This document shows, one piece after another, positions 234-14,067 of a DNA stretch of 24,346 bases; the stretch's first letter is position 1; each line of letters begins with the position of its first letter. The position numbers were made by a program, and so were the translations under genes. Origin of the DNA: a virus; IMG/VR virus record IMGVR_UViG_3300010233_000239, positions 1 through 24,346 of that record; one strand, written 5' to 3'. The notes beneath the pieces are model-generated. The model made no database searches. It was given only the letters and a program-made list of their open reading frames with translations, and was not told the origin of the DNA.

Positions 234-926
234 TTAAAATACCGACAGGATAGTTTGTACTAATGGATGCCTTACAGATTGCTTTAAATCGGCAATACCA
301 ATGCGGTTATCAGGATTTAATGACAACGGCTCAACCCTCTTGATAAAGTCTGCAAAATCATTTTGATGATAATGACATAGGTCTGACTGAGTCGTATCGC
401 CGTTTAAAATCATCTTAGAATTCTCGCCGAAACGAGTAACAACAAGTTTAAGTTGGTGCATAGTAAGGTTTTCCGCTTCATCAATTACGATAAACGAATT
501 GATAAATGTTAAACCTCGCATAAATCCAACCGGTATGACTTGAATTTGTCCGTGAGCAATTGCTTTACGTACGTCTATAAATGGCGATAGCTGAATAAAT
601 AAAGGCTGTAGATAAGGATCTGTTTTATTTTCTATCTCGCCCGGCAGAATACCTAAATTAGCTTCTGCACTAACGATTGGTCTCGATATGATAATTTTGT
701 CTACTAAACCTCGTAGAAAATAATCAGCCGCCATAGCTGAACTAACAGCACTTTTACCACTTCCAGCAACACCGCTGACAAATATTAAATCATTATTATG
801 GATAAGTTTAACTAAGCTAGCTTGTTCGCGAGTTCTAGGAGAAAATTTTTCATGCTGCGTTTCATGTTCTGATTCACGAGTTACATCTTTTGGTTGCACC
901 GCTGCGGGACGACGTTTTCTAGGCAT
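234..926 (-). CDS. phoH: PhoH-like P-loop ATPase
   Basis: This is a 230-residue PhoH-family ATPase. The family is a P-loop NTPase related to the N-terminal half of superfamily 1 helicases, common in phages and usually linked to RNA metabolism or stress; its exact role in phages is unsettled. Visible motifs are the Walker A GVAGSGKS at residues 52-59, Walker B FIVIDEAEN around 145-153, and the family signature KMILNGDTTQSDL around 171-183. The first 30 residues are a charged, probably disordered extension. The length is close to that of compact PhoH proteins. The start is the ATG at 926, with only a weak TAAAG upstream. It follows the BCS1-like gene after a 45-base gap, one of the longer gaps here, which contains a TATACT hexamer (around 961-966) that could be a weak -10 element. 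Confidence 0.95.
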   Translation of the reverse strand: MPRKRRPAAVQPKDVTRESEHETQHEKFSPRTREQASLVKLIHNNDLIFVSGVAGSGKSAVSSAMAADYFLRGLVDKIIISRPIVSAEANLGILPGEIENKTDPYLQPLFIQLSPFIDVRKAIAHGQIQVIPVGFMRGLTFINSFIVIDEAENLTMHQLKLVVTRFGENSKMILNGDTTQSDLCHYHQNDFADFIKRVEPLSLNPDNRIGIADLKQSVRHPLVQTILSVF

Positions 927-971: not shown

Positions 972-2405
972 CTATTCTAATTTGATCCCCAGGCTATTAA
1001 ATAGATCGTCTTCGTCTTCATATTGTGTCAAACTTCCCTTCATTGCTTGAAAAGTATCATTGTTTGGTATTTTATAATCATAAAGTTCCTTTAAAGCTAA
1101 ACCAATACATCGCTCTTGTAATTGAGCGGGAGTTAACTCTTCATCGGGATTTTGTAAAAGTTGGTCAGTAATTTCTTTATGGGCTTCGGGACTATCATGT
1201 AAGATTTTATTGACTAATTTAAATTTATTTTCTGCTGTAAGATATGTTAATTCAATGACTTTGTCTATCCTACCGGGTCTATTTAACAATGCTGGGTCTA
1301 CCTTATCTAGTAGATTAGTGGTTATGATGGTAAATATACCCTCGAAGTTTTCTACGCCGTCCAAACAATTTAAAAAAGTATCAAAAGTTAGACCTTTTCT
1401 ATCCATAGTGTCAACTTGATTGTCTTTGTCGCTTAAAGCTGACAACAAATTATTATTACTATAAACAATATTGGTTCTACCATCAAAAATATTATCAAAA
1501 TCTTCTATTAAAACAATACATGGAGTATAGTGTTGTAAAGAACGCCATTGATCTTCAAACTTTTTTGATGTCATATTGTGCATTTTAAATAAAACTATTG
1601 GTATATCTAGAAGTTCTGCTATAGCTCTTGCTAATGAACTTTTACCGGTGCCCGGTGGTCCGTATAATAACCATCCTAATTTCCAATTAACGCCTTTTCT
1701 TTTATACCAATCTTTATTATCAAACCATAGTTGGGCTGATTCAATTAATTCTTCATTATTTTTTGTTAATACGATAGAATCAATTTTATCTTTATTTACT
1801 TGAAATCCTAAATCATGATTTTTATGAGATAGTGAGATACAAGTTGCTCGGGCAAAATTAATAATTTCGCTTCCAGACACCGACGTTGAAGAATAACCAT
1901 CATCTATCTTCAAAACAAAAAATCGCTGCTGATTCTTATTTTCTTCCGCAGAACTTTCGTTATAATAGTGAGTTGCATTATTTATCAATTTAATTGGATC
2001 TAAAGTACCTTTGATATAGAATAGGGTTACTTTTTCATACGCGGTTGTTGGTATACTTTTAGAGTTTTCTGTTTTATTGTCTTGTTTGGCTACATGATAA
2101 TAAAATGGAATATGTTTACTCCAAAAAAGTATGGACGATTTACCAAATCTTTCTAAAGATATATATTCTCTTTTTTTTGTAGACCTAATATAATACTGAT
2201 AGTGGAAAATCGTTTTATCGTAAAATCCAGAATATTGAAAATTGTGAATTAGGTAAGATAATAAAATATGCTGTGAGTGTTCTTCTATAACAATTTTCTT
2301 CACAAATATATTACATACTTTCCATGCTGCGCTCTTAATCATTCCCCATGAGGAAATTAATGTGCCGACTAATGCTCCACCAACAAATAGCTTGGTAAAA
2401 TCCAC
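972..2405 (-). CDS. BCS1-like membrane-anchored AAA ATPase
   Basis: A 477-residue AAA ATPase with the layout of mitochondrial BCS1: an N-terminal hydrophobic segment (about residues 6-24), a middle region of about 200 residues, then one AAA module. The module has Walker A GPPGTGKS at 249-256, Walker B IVLIED at 297-302, the sensor-1 region IITTN ending at 364, and an NRPGRID motif at 375-381 with the expected arginine. The stretch FLNCLDGVENFEG (344-356) closely resembles the BCS1 signature LLNALDGV. Mitochondrial BCS1 moves a folded iron-sulfur protein across a membrane; the viral substrate is unknown. The start is a GTG at 2405 with AAGGA (2412-2416) six bases upstream, overlapping the thyX stop codon. 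A general AAA protease partner is less likely because no peptidase domain is present. Confidence 0.88.
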   Translation of the reverse strand: MDFTKLFVGGALVGTLISSWGMIKSAAWKVCNIFVKKIVIEEHSQHILLSYLIHNFQYSGFYDKTIFHYQYYIRSTKKREYISLERFGKSSILFWSKHIPFYYHVAKQDNKTENSKSIPTTAYEKVTLFYIKGTLDPIKLINNATHYYNESSAEENKNQQRFFVLKIDDGYSSTSVSGSEIINFARATCISLSHKNHDLGFQVNKDKIDSIVLTKNNEELIESAQLWFDNKDWYKRKGVNWKLGWLLYGPPGTGKSSLARAIAELLDIPIVLFKMHNMTSKKFEDQWRSLQHYTPCIVLIEDFDNIFDGRTNIVYSNNNLLSALSDKDNQVDTMDRKGLTFDTFLNCLDGVENFEGIFTIITTNLLDKVDPALLNRPGRIDKVIELTYLTAENKFKLVNKILHDSPEAHKEITDQLLQNPDEELTPAQLQERCIGLALKELYDYKIPNNDTFQAMKGSLTQYEDEDDLFNSLGIKLE

Positions 2406-2411
2406 TTTATA

Positions 2412-2416
2412 TCCTT
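2412..2416 (-). promoter_or_regulatory. Ribosome binding site deciding the GTG start of the AAA ATPase gene
   Basis: The minus strand reads AAGGA, then TATAAA, then GTG. The six-base spacing supports GTG at 2405 as the true start, and the site overlaps the upstream thyX stop codon, suggesting translational coupling. Confidence 0.7.
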
Positions 2417-3198
2417 TAAGGTTTATTATTCAATAAATACTTCCAGCCTTCTTCTGTTTTCTCTAAATCTGCAAATACCGAAGGTGAAAAATCCTTTAAA
2501 ATCGGCACAACCTGATCCATTACTAAACGAATTTCTTCTTCTGCGCCATCTCCGCCCCTCATATTAACTATATGTCGCCACGCACGCAAATTTCCTGTCA
2601 CTAATATAGTTGTTGCTAAACCAATTGGGGCTAGTCTGCGAAATCTACTTGTCCATTTTTTCTTTTCATCAAACGATTTACCTTCTAAATTAACTATTTT
2701 ATTTAACTTTAATTGCACGTTTTCTAAATATTCTACTGTTTCTAAGTATAGTTGATTTAACTCTTCATTTTCTTCTACTTCTTTTGGAAGCCAAAATTTT
2801 AATTGGTCTAGACGAACATAACGTAGACTTTCTTGTGAATAAGCCATTCCTGCACGATGTCTAACCATTTCGTGGGTAAACACTCTACTAACATTATGAA
2901 AAATCATACTGATAGTAGAGTGTTCTAACACGCTGCCATGCGATGATTGAATAATATTTTGGACATATTGTAAATTATCATCCCTTACTCTGGATACATT
3001 AGGATTTGTTCCTTGCGTACCATCATAAGGTGCCCAACTACGGTAACATAGTCTTCCAGCAACTTCTATTAATCCATCAGAAGGTGTTTCAGCATTAGAA
3101 CTCCATCCTTCTTGTTGGATATCTTCCATAAAGTCTGAAAAATTTTCATTAAAATCTGTTTGTGCTACCACGTAAACTTTAGGTTGAACTTGTATCAT
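2416..3198 (-). CDS. thyX: Flavin-dependent thymidylate synthase ThyX
   Basis: ThyX methylates dUMP to dTMP using methylenetetrahydrofolate, FAD and NADPH. The 260-residue protein carries the ThyX signature RHRAGMAYSQESLRY at 113-127 and the C-terminal RAWRHIVNMRGGDGAEEEIR region at about 205-224, matching the family's conserved arginine and dUMP-binding segment. The signature has eight residues between RHR and the serine of QES, one more than the textbook RHRx7S spacing. It is preceded by AAGGA about 12 bases upstream of the ATG, a rather long spacing. With dCMP deaminase (9991-10449) it gives a complete dCMP to dTMP route. It lies between the exported protease cassette and the AAA ATPase in one transcription direction. 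Confidence 0.95.
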   Translation of the reverse strand: MIQVQPKVYVVAQTDFNENFSDFMEDIQQEGWSSNAETPSDGLIEVAGRLCYRSWAPYDGTQGTNPNVSRVRDDNLQYVQNIIQSSHGSVLEHSTISMIFHNVSRVFTHEMVRHRAGMAYSQESLRYVRLDQLKFWLPKEVEENEELNQLYLETVEYLENVQLKLNKIVNLEGKSFDEKKKWTSRFRRLAPIGLATTILVTGNLRAWRHIVNMRGGDGAEEEIRLVMDQVVPILKDFSPSVFADLEKTEEGWKYLLNNKP

Positions 3199-3236
3199 AT
3201 TGGGATATTTTCCTTAGTAAATATGCATTCTATGTC

Positions 3237-4124
3237 TTACAAAGATCGCAAGTAAGCACTAATATTTTCCTTTAGAAAGAAATTCTTAAATGAATGTTTT
3301 GGAGTAGTCTTCGCCGCCTCATATGGAACCGCAAAATTTACGCCATTATCCTCAATAGGAATTTTCTTTAGATCGGGCTCTGATGGCAGAGGGCATTCCG
3401 AGTTAATCGCCCACTCTACATTAGCACTTTTTGCCCAATCAAGAATACGTCGAGCCGGAACACATAAAATGAATGTTTCGCCCGCACCATTAGTTAGAAT
3501 ACCTAACATACGACCATCGTTTAAAAACAATCCACTTCCAGAACAACCGGGAAATCCGGGGCAACTAACTTGATCGTAAACGTGACCGTCAAGTAATCGA
3601 CCATGTTGGGAAACAATTCCCTTACTAACTGTGTTGCTGCCGTCTAAACCTAAAGCGGAACCCACATTAATGACATCGTCGCCCAATGAAGGTAATTTCT
3701 TTTCATTATAAATTCTAAATGATGCGGTTGAAAAATTCTTCTTACGTACCTTTAGTATCGCTAAATCTTCTTCGCGGTTGTACCGAATAACCGAAGCCAA
3801 AATACTATATCGAGCAACCAATCGACCGTCTTCATTAATACTTTGAACGATCTGTGCGTCGTCAAACTCTACAACGGTACGTGGTGTTCCACTTTTCCCA
3901 TCAATAATCTGACGAGTTTTTCTCAACCCCTCAACTACATGTGCAGCCGTTAGTACAAATGTTACATTATCGTCGCCAATTTTTCTAGTAGACAACACGC
4001 CACTACCAGAACCCCTTCCAGTTGTTACGGTTACGGAAACCTCTTGTAGTTTGTCAATCAAATCACCGGCATATGTCGGAACAGGAGCGATAACGAGAAG
4101 TAAAGCGAGCAGAAAACGTTTCAT
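3237..4124 (-). CDS. Exported trypsin-like serine protease (S1 family, HtrA-like domain)
   Basis: A 295-residue protein with a clear cleavable signal peptide (MKRFLLALLLVIAPVPTYA, cleavage likely after residue 19), so it is predicted to act outside the cytoplasm. The chymotrypsin-fold triad is visible: His62 in TAAHVV, Asp120 in EEDLAIL, and Ser195 in GCSGSG, which replaces the usual GNSGGP. There is no PDZ domain after the protease domain, only a tail of about 70 residues. It shares several stretches with the second protease at 5058-5762 (VSKGI, DGR followed by a hydrophobic strand, and a WA segment near the end of the domain), so the two are probably paralogues. The start ATG at 4124 overlaps the upstream stop as ATGA, with TGAGG seven bases upstream. 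Targets are unknown; envelope or surface proteins of the host are plausible. Confidence 0.9.
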   Translation of the reverse strand: MKRFLLALLLVIAPVPTYAGDLIDKLQEVSVTVTTGRGSGSGVLSTRKIGDDNVTFVLTAAHVVEGLRKTRQIIDGKSGTPRTVVEFDDAQIVQSINEDGRLVARYSILASVIRYNREEDLAILKVRKKNFSTASFRIYNEKKLPSLGDDVINVGSALGLDGSNTVSKGIVSQHGRLLDGHVYDQVSCPGFPGCSGSGLFLNDGRMLGILTNGAGETFILCVPARRILDWAKSANVEWAINSECPLPSEPDLKKIPIEDNGVNFAVPYEAAKTTPKHSFKNFFLKENISAYLRSL

Positions 4125-5065
4125 AGTTTAGCCTCAGATCTTTGGGTTAAAATTAGTAATGCAATACCGTCATCAAGCAAAATTTTATCTTTAGATGACC
4201 ATGTTTTGTCTATAGATTGTGATTGACATAGAGGATCTTCACCGGCGTATTTAATTACATTGGGGAAAAATTTACTACAACAAAGCACACCGAGCGGGGA
4301 AAAATAATAAGGGGAATTCACCGAATATCCATATGGTGATGGCATCGCTGAATATCCTAACCTACCAGTAGTTTTAATTTGAAATTTTATAGATTTGTCG
4401 AGATGATCTAACCAAATAGTCTCCTCTGGATAAAACGCGAGGGGAAAATAGAACACGAACAATGGTAAAGTATAATCTATATTGGTTTCCGGTAAAGGTG
4501 AATTATAATATTTGTATAATAAAATTCCCTCATTATATCTATCCCACTTACTGCGCAAGCCAATGCCGTGACGGAATAAGCCCTCTTCCATCATCTTCTC
4601 TTTGTCTATTCCCGCGCTAACCTTTTTTATATGAGCCAACAATTCGGAATCTCCTAATCGTTCGGCTGCTCTTTGCGCTCCTAAATAGAATAGAATAGAG
4701 TCTATAGAAGATACTTCACATGAATATGCCGGATTGCCCTTTAAATCCACGAAATGATATAACCAACCGAAGTGATCCATATTGGCGTTAATCATATTGT
4801 CAAAACCTGTGGCAATCCATTGCTTGGCGGTTTTTTTAGAAATTATTCCGTGTTCGGCAGCAAGAACATAAGCATAAAAGCCGGTTCCGGTTGCTGATAC
4901 TGATACGATTTCTCTATTATCTGATCGGTCTAATGTCCAACACTTAGCAGTTTTCGCTGAAAGTATGCTTCGCACTAATGGCGTCACATAGTCGGGCTTC
5001 ACATTATGCAAAACACACGATAAAAATATCGTAGCCACAATTAACAGCGTAGCTAATTTACTCAT
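4121..5065 (-). CDS. Predicted exported glycoside hydrolase, glucoamylase-like (alpha/alpha)6 barrel
   Basis: A 314-residue protein with an N-terminal hydrophobic segment (about residues 5-19, with a cysteine at 17 but a poor lipobox). Its core matches the glucoamylase-like family (PF10091, related to GH144/GH162 beta-1,2-glucanases) at several points: VSVSATGTGF (54-63), a GWLYHFVD segment (100-107), EVSSIDSILF (117-126), and WDRYNEGILLYKYYNSP around residues 173-189, where the family has a YNEA..LY..ALGSP motif. Known members act on beta-1,2-glucan or related polysaccharides; the substrate here is unknown. It is shorter than typical members and may lack peripheral helices. It overlaps the flanking protease genes by 4 and 8 bases, so the three are likely co-translated. 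An alternative is a non-catalytic binding protein with the same fold. Confidence 0.72.
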   Translation of the reverse strand: MSKLATLLIVATIFLSCVLHNVKPDYVTPLVRSILSAKTAKCWTLDRSDNREIVSVSATGTGFYAYVLAAEHGIISKKTAKQWIATGFDNMINANMDHFGWLYHFVDLKGNPAYSCEVSSIDSILFYLGAQRAAERLGDSELLAHIKKVSAGIDKEKMMEEGLFRHGIGLRSKWDRYNEGILLYKYYNSPLPETNIDYTLPLFVFYFPLAFYPEETIWLDHLDKSIKFQIKTTGRLGYSAMPSPYGYSVNSPYYFSPLGVLCCSKFFPNVIKYAGEDPLCQSQSIDKTWSSKDKILLDDGIALLILTQRSEAKL

Positions 5066-5762
5066 TATATAGCCATGACATATCGTTGTCGTCAGCCCAT
5101 TTAATAATTGTTCTAACCGGCAACATTCCGTATCGAATGTCTTTATTACCTATGCAAATCATACCAACTAGTCGACCGTCTAACAAGAATACTCCTGAAC
5201 CGCTCGCTCCTGACTTGCCGGTAATTGCTAAAATGTCGTATGAGTTTCCACGTACAAATAAGTCGTGCGAAGAAATAATGCCCTTGCTAACCGCATGAGG
5301 TACTTCTGCCCCGGAATTATTGCCTACAGTTAAAACGTCTGTCGCTAGTTTTGGCTTTGTCTTGGATAGGTAAAATTTGGTAGACGTAAAATGAAAGTTG
5401 GATTTATCTAATAATTTAATTACGCCTATATCCAACTTACGATTGTATTTAATTACTTCGCCTGTAACACTATAGGTGATATTATTTTGTGTGTGTAATA
5501 CTTCTACGTGTTTAAATGTGACCTCTCCGGTATATTCGTCTTCAATAATGGATGGCTCAAGACAATGTGCGGCGGTTATAACATAAACCTCATTATTGTG
5601 AAGTACAGTGAACCCACTACCATAACCTTCGGCGTCTTTAACCACTACGCTGGAATTTACAAGATTTTCAATTGGTGAACTTTGAGGAAGGGTGAAATAT
5701 AAAGTAGTTCCAAGTATGAAACCGGCGTAAATAATTACTCCAAAAATAATTTTATTCATCAT
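5058..5762 (-). CDS. Membrane-anchored trypsin-like serine protease (second copy)
   Basis: A 234-residue serine protease with an uncleaved-looking N-terminal anchor (about residues 4-24). The triad is His66 in TAAHC, Asp111 in KLDIGVI, and Ser187 in GASGSG. It aligns with the protease at 3237-4124 along its whole length: IKYNRKLD versus IRYNREED, HAVSKGIISSHD versus NTVSKGIVSQHG, LLDGRLVGM versus LNDGRMLGI, and the KWADDNDMSWL end versus DWAKSANVEWA. It lacks the longer C-terminal tail of that copy. The ATG at 5762 overlaps the release-factor-like gene's stop as ATGA. The two copies probably arose by duplication, with the glycosidase gene lying between them. The N-terminal anchor suggests it stays at the membrane while its paralogue is released. 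Confidence 0.9.
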   Translation of the reverse strand: MMNKIIFGVIIYAGFILGTTLYFTLPQSSPIENLVNSSVVVKDAEGYGSGFTVLHNNEVYVITAAHCLEPSIIEDEYTGEVTFKHVEVLHTQNNITYSVTGEVIKYNRKLDIGVIKLLDKSNFHFTSTKFYLSKTKPKLATDVLTVGNNSGAEVPHAVSKGIISSHDLFVRGNSYDILAITGKSGASGSGVFLLDGRLVGMICIGNKDIRYGMLPVRTIIKWADDNDMSWLYNE

Positions 5763-6154
5763 GGTCTATCCTCTAAAAGTTCTATTTGACCTTTAATAAG
5801 TATGTCGTGTATGCTTGCCCTTTTACCATTTTTGTGATTGATAACTCCCTGATCATTTCCACACATTCGGTACGTTCGTATCTGACTGCCAAATGTAGCG
5901 TCAGACTTAGCCTCATACGCCTTTTGTAAGGATAAGTCTTTTTTATCTTTAATAAATTGATCTAATTTTTCCTGCAAAGACTCCATTGCCGCTTTTTTAT
6001 TTTGTGGTAATGATCTTTCTTTTGTAGCCACGGCTTTAATACCGGTAGGTATATGAATAGCTCTTACGCATTTTTGACATTTGTTCCTATTAGCTCCTCC
6101 GGGTCCATGACCGGAAAATACTTCAAAACGTATATCTTTAGGATTTATTTTCAT
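5759..6154 (-). CDS. Stand-alone class I release-factor domain with GGA instead of GGQ
   Basis: A 131-residue protein consisting of the peptidyl-tRNA hydrolysis domain of class I release factors (PF00472). The segment GHGPGGANRNK (16-26) aligns with the catalytic loop SGAGGQHVNK, IHIPTGI follows as in RF2, and the C-terminal SQIRTY and the helix after it match domain 3 of RF1/RF2. No stop-codon recognition domain (PxT or SPF) is present, so it cannot read stop codons by itself. The catalytic glutamine is an alanine codon (GCT), and the loop is two residues longer. Family knowledge: the glycines are essential, while glutamine substitutions lower but do not always abolish hydrolysis. Likely roles are ribosome rescue or an inactive competitor. 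It overlaps both neighbours by ATGA. Confidence 0.85.
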   Translation of the reverse strand: MKINPKDIRFEVFSGHGPGGANRNKCQKCVRAIHIPTGIKAVATKERSLPQNKKAAMESLQEKLDQFIKDKKDLSLQKAYEAKSDATFGSQIRTYRMCGNDQGVINHKNGKRASIHDILIKGQIELLEDRP

Positions 6155-10988: not shown

Positions 10989-11384
10989 TTATCGTACTCC
11001 ACACGATCCGCTAGAACAATTAGTCCCCATAGGTAAAACTTGTTGAGGTAGCAACTGATAATGAACTTCCGGCTGCGTATTTACGGCATTCATACGTTTG
11101 ATATCCCTATCAAGTGTGGTTTTATTTACATTTCCCCACCATCGACCATAGCGGTCTTTGGCTTTAAAAAGTTCCTTATTAGCTTCGCTAATTTTTTGTT
11201 CTAATTCTGCTTCGGTCGAAGACTTCCACTTCTTACCAAATTTATCCCATCCAACGTAAACGGTTACTACCGTAACTGGTGATTCATTTGCCGATTCAAT
11301 TCGTGAAACCGGAGGTTTTTCCTCAACCATATCAAATGACGGAGGTTGAGTTACCAACATTAATGTTAAAAGCAGTGCGTTCAT
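10989..11384 (-). CDS. Predicted secreted protein with a C-terminal cysteine pair (131 aa)
   Basis: Not recognised. The N-terminus MNALLLTLMLVTQPPS is a short hydrophobic stretch consistent with a weak signal peptide or anchor, but it has no lysine or arginine before the hydrophobic core. The middle is a helix (EAELEQKISEANKELFKAKD) followed by RYGRWWGNVNKTTLDRDIKR. The end, NCSSGSCGVR, holds a CxxxxC pair that could form a disulfide outside the cytoplasm. It overlaps the RNA-ligase gene by ATGA, with AAGGA about ten bases before the ATG. Confidence 0.7.
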   Translation of the reverse strand: MNALLLTLMLVTQPPSFDMVEEKPPVSRIESANESPVTVVTVYVGWDKFGKKWKSSTEAELEQKISEANKELFKAKDRYGRWWGNVNKTTLDRDIKRMNAVNTQPEVHYQLLPQQVLPMGTNCSSGSCGVR

Positions 11385-12388
11385 TGCATATTATTCCTTT
11401 CTAATTGTTGACCCATCATCCAATGTTTATTTGTTTGTATATGATCTCTTCGTACAAACTTGCCAACGCTGCGAGAAAACGCTTTATATGGGAACGACGA
11501 AGTAAGTCTAACAACATAACCCTCGACTAAATCGAAATCTAATTCGTCTTGTTTTGCCAATATTCGCTGCGGGAGAAATGCTCCTCTATACAATACATTA
11601 GGAATCTGGATACCCAACAAGCTAAACCACTCAATAGTATCATCCCAACTAAGACATTCATTGCTTTCGCTCCATACGGAGAAACCAAGAAAAAACGACT
11701 TTAAATCATTATACATAATGGAATGTTTTGCGTATAGGTTTTCTCCGCAAATTCTCCAACCATCGGGAATCTCAGATCGTATTTGCGACCAAAAATTTTT
11801 CACCCAAGTGCGACTAGGATGACTACCACTATTAACGCTACGTGCGTGAATGTGATCGTTATACATTGTTGTGTTCTCGCCATCCATTTTTTCCGTCATT
11901 ACAATTTCTTGATTTTGAAAAGACTCAAGTGAAGCCATCATTCTATCATCATCATTCATGCCATCAGACCAGGGTAAATGATAAGTTCGCGGATATTTTA
12001 CATAATGGGTGAATAAATGAAAACTATCTCGAAGTATTTTTTGTACACTGTCGTCATTGAATAATTCTCCGCGTAAACGTTTTCCATTAGGCAAAATGCA
12101 ATTTCCCCATTTATCATAAATTTCATCGTCATATAAGTGTGGTGGCAAAATTCTATGAGAATTGGTTTTTTGTAATAGATGTTCTACTGTAATAATAGTT
12201 TTTTCTGCTTCGATATGACAATTTGGACATAGCGATGCACCGTTATCTAAATAATATCCACCATCTGTAAATAACCTTCTTTCCATAATATGATGAGCGT
12301 CTGCTGCGGGGAAATCACATATAACGCATTTATGACTATCTCTCTCAAATACAGCATTGCGGAATGTGTCCCTACTCATTAACATCAT
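11381..12388 (-). CDS. HNH domain fused to an RNA ligase
   Basis: A 335-residue two-domain protein. Residues 14-65 form an HNH/zinc module: Cys21 and Cys24 in CVIC, DAHHI at 30-34, an asparagine in DNGASLC, and CPNCH at 54-58. Residues 160-320 form a nucleotidyltransferase RNA-ligase core: motif I EKMDGEN with the nucleotide-accepting Lys167, WRICGENLYAKHS at 211-223, FFLGFSVW at 232-239, motif IV VEGYVVR at 288-294 and motif V KFVRR at 310-314. Such ligases seal nicked RNA with ATP, and phage versions repair host-cleaved tRNA. The HNH fusion could cut, or could simply bind nucleic acid. The start is one of three nearby ATGs (12388, 12385, 12379); GGGGA precedes the first. It overlaps both neighbours. 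Confidence 0.87.
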   Translation of the reverse strand: MMLMSRDTFRNAVFERDSHKCVICDFPAADAHHIMERRLFTDGGYYLDNGASLCPNCHIEAEKTIITVEHLLQKTNSHRILPPHLYDDEIYDKWGNCILPNGKRLRGELFNDDSVQKILRDSFHLFTHYVKYPRTYHLPWSDGMNDDDRMMASLESFQNQEIVMTEKMDGENTTMYNDHIHARSVNSGSHPSRTWVKNFWSQIRSEIPDGWRICGENLYAKHSIMYNDLKSFFLGFSVWSESNECLSWDDTIEWFSLLGIQIPNVLYRGAFLPQRILAKQDELDFDLVEGYVVRLTSSFPYKAFSRSVGKFVRRDHIQTNKHWMMGQQLERNNMQ

Positions 12389-13157: not shown

Positions 13158-13166
13158 ATTATATCA
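13158..13166 (-). promoter_or_regulatory. Candidate extended -10 promoter (TGATATAAT)
   Basis: The minus strand reads TGATATAAT, a perfect sigma-70 extended -10 element (TGnTATAAT), overlapping the stop codon of the cysteine peptidase gene. TTGGAC lies 19 bases before the hexamer as a poor -35 match. It is placed to start transcription into the intergenic stretch and the genes from 12961 leftward. AT-rich DNA yields such matches by chance, but the position at the largest gap is suggestive. Confidence 0.35.
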
Positions 13167-14067
13167 TACTGAAAAAATCAGGGTCCAATGATTGTAATCT
13201 AAAATCATCGAATGAACTATAAGCCCAACTATCGTCTTGAGAAAGCATTGCTACGACATCAGCCTTACGGGCACGAATAACGCCAACGGGTAACGTTAGC
13301 GAAGGATCACGAAAGTCTTGTAAAGGACCACCCATTACATCTCCCCAGCTATTTAAAATAATAGCATGTGGTTCAATATTTTTAGATTTGTCACCATTGT
13401 CGACTCCGATAATACATAATTGATGACCCCAATTACCTTGTCTGTGGTGATATCCATCTGGCTGAGGAGTCATAGTAAACCCAACATCGCTAGCAACGGT
13501 AACCGGATAAAGATTAGTAATCGCTGCAACTAAATCATCCCAAGTAGAAACTTTGGCTGTTTTATGAACAATGTGTTCTTTTGCTACTGATAAGAATGGC
13601 TGCCAAGGAGTTTTACTTGCGCCCCACTTTTTAGCTATATCCCCGCTATACTTAGGTACATCCTGTGCCGTTGCATCTAGCTCACCATATTGGTTAGCTG
13701 CTTGTGCGGCATAAATACCAACTGAGCCATCGCCAGTGCCCAACATGTTCCCAATTGATCTACTGGTTCCATAAGCGAACGGAGGGAAAATCGGATGAAA
13801 CTCTGCTATATTACCCATAACAATTTGACAACACTCTACGTATTCAGTGGCATTCTTTGCGCCGAACGAAACGCAGTCGCCGATCTCCTGCCCGTAGTTA
13901 TCCGTATCCTTACCTAAAACCTTTCGTGTTAGCCTACATAATTGCATATTGTCCGTGGTAGGACCAGAGCCAACAATATAAATTTGACCAGTTAGTTCAG
14001 ATGGGGCGTTAGATAACGCTTTATCAAGTATTTTTCGGTCAACACCAGCCCAACCAAAATTAATCAT
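13159..14067 (-). CDS. Papain-like cysteine peptidase (C1 family)
   Basis: A 302-residue protein with the papain catalytic layout: Gln60 and Cys65 in GQEIGDCVSFGA (oxyanion glutamine and nucleophile), His215 in GNWGHQLCIIGVD, and Asn239 in IILNSWGD, the counterpart of the papain NSWG motif. There is no signal peptide and no long propeptide, only about 59 residues before the active site, so it may be made as an active or virion-packaged enzyme. It shares a block with membrane-anchored and glycine-rich proteins that look structural or envelope-related. Possible roles are maturation of virion proteins or attack on host proteins. A CGAG element lies eight bases before the ATG, in a GAGTATTAAA context much like that before the partial gene at the left end. 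Confidence 0.85.
   Translation of the reverse strand: MINFGWAGVDRKILDKALSNAPSELTGQIYIVGSGPTTDNMQLCRLTRKVLGKDTDNYGQEIGDCVSFGAKNATEYVECCQIVMGNIAEFHPIFPPFAYGTSRSIGNMLGTGDGSVGIYAAQAANQYGELDATAQDVPKYSGDIAKKWGASKTPWQPFLSVAKEHIVHKTAKVSTWDDLVAAITNLYPVTVASDVGFTMTPQPDGYHHRQGNWGHQLCIIGVDNGDKSKNIEPHAIILNSWGDVMGGPLQDFRDPSLTLPVGVIRARKADVVAMLSQDDSWAYSSFDDFRLQSLDPDFFSMI

Follow-up and report, generated by a model that had tools for sequence, protein, structure and literature searches.

Mitochondrial Bcs1 moves the folded Rieske protein through a heptameric ring that has two vestibules and a seal; the movement is concerted and non-threading, and Bcs1 is described as the mitochondrial replacement for Tat in the transport of this folded protein (PMC12219900, PMC11143374). 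The basket and the seal used in translocation are formed by its N-terminal helix and middle domain, and in yeast Bcs1 a DDR motif contacts the Rieske protein (PMC12219900). Iyer et al. (2021) described BCS1 orthologues from each of the three major groups of jumbo phages, and proposed that they act in membrane-proximal virion assembly, the folded proteins that they move ending up in the head (PMC7824862). The occurrence of BCS1 in a phage, which was the main surprise of the original prediction for the locus studied here, has thus been known since 2021 and is not in itself new. On the divergent clade to which the protein belongs, no paper was found among open-licence papers.

Phage genomes offer many classical examples. 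One hundred INPHARED records match BCS1, mostly from large phages, and the Pfam domain BCS1_N was found in all 15 of the complete classical-BCS1 phages examined, scoring above its cut-off in 12. The jumbo-phage orthologues, for example those of Salmonella phage Munch, Caulobacter phage CcrPW and Salicola phage SCTP-2 (reported as a group in PMC7824862), resemble the protein studied here in their domain order, in belonging to large phages and in lacking a Rieske partner. However, their BCS1_N is recognisable and they fall together with the BCS1s of mitochondria and bacteria, whereas the protein studied here lies in a sister clade. As a side observation, a nucleotidyltransferase of PF10127 type (name taken from the Miami annotation) is encoded close to BCS1 in three phages that are otherwise distant from one another, with 29-31% identity, at -677..-15 (L007), -1139..-324 (L024) and +2573..3562 (L016) relative to the BCS1 start; this may be due to chance.

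The window, by which we mean the whole stretch of 24,346 nucleotides that was analysed, belongs to a virus record of 26,145 bases which is itself a fragment (a contig of about 26 kb). The RNA ligase of this record shares 57.5% identity with the enzyme of the 440-kb phage SCTP-2, and the nearest matches of its ribonucleotide reductase are in uncultured phages of 460-630 kb; since both are closest to jumbo or huge phages, the record likely originates from a large phage. The gene occupies positions 972..2405 of the minus strand as an intact open reading frame with a GTG start, encoding a divergent BCS1-type AAA ATPase of 477 residues with a predicted membrane anchor. It sits within a run of minus-strand genes, between thyX upstream (2416..3198, Pfam Thy1 E 9.2e-39) and phoH downstream (234..926, Pfam PhoH E=2.6e-54), both mentioned here for context, so that the adjacency to phoH in a probable phage is as originally described. 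The thyX stop codon TAA lies at 2418-2416, and an AGGA at 2412..2415 on the same strand, six bases before the GTG, is a probable ribosome binding site. The gene and thyX are probably on one transcript; a promoter and terminator scan gave results near chance. Neighbour comparison across phages indicated that the adjacency to phoH is not common to the relatives, and the search for shared neighbours found none with this gene, only sporadic families.

Other genes of the window deserve a brief mention. A short RF-1 domain protein (5759-6154, Pfam E 5e-20) is possibly a ribosome-rescue factor carried by the phage, and the RNA ligase (11381-12388) is fused to an N-terminal HNH-like domain. A 302-residue protein with no family match (13159-14067) reads like a cysteine protease from its NSWGD motif. 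Another one, of 314 residues (4121-5065), also has no family match and is flanked by two trypsin-like protease genes (3237-4124 and 5058-5762); it has a homologue in a planctomycete genome with 36% identity over residues 44-312 (E 1e-39). This last protein was tried as a link to the host and, although planctomycetes provide its three strongest matches (E 1e-39 to 1e-21), it was rejected as non-discriminating, with matches at E<=0.001 in 18/148 and 17/145 genomes of the two groups compared.

The ATPase consists of a predicted N-terminal membrane helix, a middle domain and a single AAA module, all coordinates being on the minus strand. The helix (residues 8-34, 2304..2384) is predicted in both AlphaFold2 models, starting at residue 3 or 8, and its Kyte-Doolittle peak of 1.40 compares with 1.32 and 1.39 for the anchors of mouse and yeast Bcs1. 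The middle domain (residues 35-167, 1905..2303) is supported by predicted strands and helices, by Foldseek and VIA alignments to Bcs1 that run through it and by an hhalign profile. A linker modelled with low confidence (residues 168-212, 1770..1904), which holds a clade-conserved LG motif with an invariant G200, leads to the AAA core (residues 213-387, 1245..1769; Pfam AAA at 246-387, E=1.6e-21) and to a helical lid seen in the models (residues 388-445, 1071..1244) with the clade-conserved AQxQERC...AL. The motor motifs are complete, as had been claimed: Walker A is GPPGTGKS (residues 249-256, 1638..1661), Walker B is IVLIEDFD (residues 297-304, 1494..1517), and the second region of homology TTN...RPGRID (1263..1322) includes the arginine motif RPGR, preceded by an insertion characteristic of the clade.

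Several of these features are those of mitochondrial Bcs1/BCS1L (PDB 6UKO, 6SH3, 8TP1, 9GS2), which has a similar N-terminal membrane helix, a middle domain alike by predicted fold and an AAA domain without the aromatic pore loop. The segment of pore loop 1 that reads KYYG in VAT and FVG in FtsH is deleted in the protein studied here, and the same holds for the BCS1s with which it was compared, from yeast, mouse, bacteria and phages. Moreover, Walker B has the ED order of Bcs1 and not DE, and LNCLDGV and TTN have the forms found in Bcs1 (LNxLDGV and TTN). On the other hand, identity to the mitochondrial proteins is only about 20%, there is an insertion before the arginine finger, and the DDR contact motif of yeast Bcs1 is not conserved. 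Neither BCS1_N (PF08740, at E<=1) nor AAA_lid_BCS1 (PF25426) matches the protein, whereas the latter is present in the SCTP-2 homologue and in two bacterial homologues (L095 and L098).

When only the AAA sequence is compared, VCP-like proteins score as high as Bcs1 and are among the top PDB matches. In view of this near tie and of the missing BCS1_N match, the label "BCS1-like" needed testing, and recognition of this identity required structure prediction and a deeper profile. A single-sequence protein search of viral contigs found no relative, so that alignment-based searches were needed, and megablast of the window against phages gave no match. The first model used five close relatives, in none of which Pfam recognises BCS1_N. 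Mouse or yeast Bcs1 made up the first 11 PDB matches of Foldseek (430-475 alignment columns, E down to 3e-19), and in VIA-align Bcs1 reached a Z of 20.7 over 348 residues, spanning model residues 1-442. The rmsd of 15.8 is large because the orientation of the domains is uncertain in the models. By comparison, p97 and FtsH reached Z values of about 17 and Bacillus subtilis YjoB (7W42), a bacterial AAA protein near Bcs1 in the fold searches, 19.4, all three over the AAA part only. The second model, from 23 sequences, gave the same order, with Bcs1 first in the PDB fold search. Confidence is moderate in the middle domain (blocks of about 45-85).

Profile comparison points in the same direction for the middle domain. 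An N-terminal profile of 25 clade sequences matched classical BCS1 N-termini in hhalign with a probability of 84.9% (E 6e-6, score 42.6), against a best score of 20.0 among 60 column shuffles and 19.0 for the reversed alignment; this supersedes a comparison with only four clade sequences (5.5%). The link runs via phage and bacterial BCS1s (85.5%) and fails against the two mitochondrial sequences alone (0.3%). In the PDB, the N-terminal profile of classical phage BCS1 has Bcs1 as its sole match (E 3e-18 to 2e-10). On the evidence of profiles and models, we take the middle domain to be homologous to that of BCS1, although strongly diverged. In the AAA tree, all 40 BCS1-like proteins stand apart from VAT and FtsH (UFBoot 100), and the clade of the protein studied here (UFBoot 98 for the AAA part, 100 for the full length) is sister (98) to classical BCS1 (95). 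We therefore hold with high confidence that the protein is of BCS1 type: it is so by architecture and ancestry, but the Pfam models do not count it among the classical BCS1s.

Members of the divergent clade were found in three phage contigs and, in an N-terminal profile search, in 45 of 397 genomes of one bacterial class that we infer to be Planctomycetota. On a contig of 7.74 Mb, one member is flanked, as read from the translations, by uvrB and a gene for an aminotransferase. The planctomycete copies (L106, L131-L150), carried on chromosomes or bacterial contigs, align with the phage protein over the full length with 27-35% identity and share with it N149, G200, W287 and AQxQERC. They differ in the insertion before the arginine finger, which was scored only in clade members with a readable motif: it has 7-15 residues in these copies, 15 in the nearest relatives, and one in the phage protein. 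Neither BCS1_N nor AAA_lid_BCS1 matched in the three planctomycete relatives tested, and BCS1_N was not matched in the records G000, L019 and L020. A search of a second phylum, that of a Chthoniobacterales assembly, had used a weaker profile (A5) and was repeated with profile A7; a single match in 289 genomes, with a marginal E of 5e-4 and an internal stop, does not place the clade convincingly there. In the trees the phage protein clusters with the planctomycete copies L143-L149 (UFBoot 77 for the AAA part, 93 for the full length), to which it is 32-35% identical, versus 28-31% to the phage proteins L019 and L020. A bacterial source for the gene is the simpler reading of the direction of transfer.

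Classical BCS1_N proteins occur in the same bacterial class as well (that of G295), in 15/198 genomes. Mutual exclusion of the two types in planctomycetes was considered and set aside: the two lists have no genome in common, but chance alone would predict an overlap of only about one. Full BCS1_N was present in the three proteins tested (L095, L098, L099) of a set of bacterial proteins, L094-L099, from Schlesneria, Anaerolinea and Paraburkholderia; two of them, L095 and L098, form a group together with mitochondrial Bcs1 (UFBoot 66), a placement relevant to the origin of the mitochondrial protein. In three related planctomycete genomes (L136, L138, L140), a membrane protein that reads as SPFH/stomatin-like from its sequence, with 78-88% identity among them, is encoded upstream of the BCS1-like gene on the opposite strand. 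Finally, a 7-kb contig binned as Chthoniobacterales encodes the C-terminal half of a clade member with no N-terminal part (L093:5066-5581), in surroundings that look phage-like; the likely explanation is a fragment of a phage or a break in the assembly.

The original prediction presented the protein as a BCS1 without its known substrate. The 26,145-base record indeed encodes no Rieske domain; however, this does not set the locus apart, as none was found in any of the 15 complete BCS1-bearing phages examined either. Because of this absence and because the DDR motif is not conserved, the phage's own client is probably not Rieske, although a Rieske protein of the host may still be one. No conserved partner gene emerged across 21 planctomycete loci of clade members, and since no neighbour recurs in phages or planctomycetes, no client can be named.

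Given the BCS1 architecture and the absence of a threading loop, our best guess is a translocase or inserter of folded clients. We suggest that the phage acquired a divergent BCS1-type gene, the donor being a Planctomycetota-like bacterium or a different phage that infects such bacteria. The single N-terminal helix would anchor the protein in the host cytoplasmic membrane, with its middle and AAA domains on the cytoplasmic side. The subunits, by analogy with Bcs1, would form a wide ring without threading loops, whose cytoplasmic vestibule would take in a folded client domain, and ATP binding would push this client across the membrane or insert it. We consider such a bacterium-derived machine for a folded, non-Rieske client slightly more probable than all other possibilities taken together. 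A more specific proposal is that the phage protein and its planctomycete relatives form a separate and undescribed branch of BCS1-type translocases, carrying a folded cargo other than Rieske through the cytoplasmic membrane of bacteria, which large planctomycete phages took up to handle a phage or host membrane protein; this is offered tentatively and may well not hold.

A phage assembly factor is one alternative, with the ATPase acting close to the membrane in virion assembly, where it would bind and move folded proteins that end in the head, as suggested for other jumbo-phage BCS1s. The presence of orthologues in all three major jumbo-phage groups (PMC7824862) speaks in its favour, as do the 100 INPHARED matches, mostly in large phages, and the BCS1_N domain of the 15 complete ones. 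However, the clade is also chromosomal in many bacteria, on the 7.74-Mb contig beside housekeeping genes, a setting in which there is no virion to assemble. In the record, none of the genes beside it was recognised as structural, and no neighbour is conserved across phages. We regard this alternative as rather unlikely. About equally improbable to us is a membrane-bound chaperone with BCS1 architecture that would remodel or disassemble membrane complexes on the cytoplasmic face, with nothing crossing the membrane. The fold and motor evidence fits it as well as it fits a translocase, the insertion at the arginine finger and the different residues at the Rieske contact allow another output, and the bacterial relative YjoB is among the fold matches. 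Against it, the N-terminal helix and the BCS1-type middle domain are kept, and in Bcs1 these serve translocation (PMC12219900).

A role in defence or anti-defence, raised in the original prediction, gained no support and seems very improbable. Matches to models of the defence ATPases IetA/IteA do exist (PADLOC E 1.6e-14; NCBIfam E 1.8e-11), but they cover about 100 residues of the AAA core, and the IteA match scores 43.8 bits, far below the NCBIfam cut-off of 510; general AAA similarity suffices for such matches, and no conserved partner is seen beside clade members. The chance that this is an ordinary AAA protein of the FtsH, VCP or ClpX type with a fortuitous N-terminal helix is negligible, for although VCP-like proteins are top PDB matches by sequence, such an identity is contradicted by the deleted pore loop, the ED Walker B, the tree and the first rank of Bcs1 in all PDB structure searches, and the protein has no protease domain match and scores 43-52 bits with FtsH models (cut-offs of 600-1008) and 16 with the NCBIfam ClpX model (cut-off 359). 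The BCS1-like assignment of the original prediction was thus borne out by fold, motifs and tree, with BCS1_N undetected, and the placement in an FtsH- or ClpX-like family that it had named as its refutation did not occur.

One consequence is that Pfam BCS1_N undercounts BCS1-type proteins. If the reading of the phage protein as a translocase or inserter of folded clients is true, a divergent branch present in Planctomycetota chromosomes and in phages, with no Rieske protein in the phage record, would mean that the BCS1 machine has other clients. It would also provide bacterial systems in which these clients may be sought and the generality of folded-protein translocation by AAA rings may be tested.
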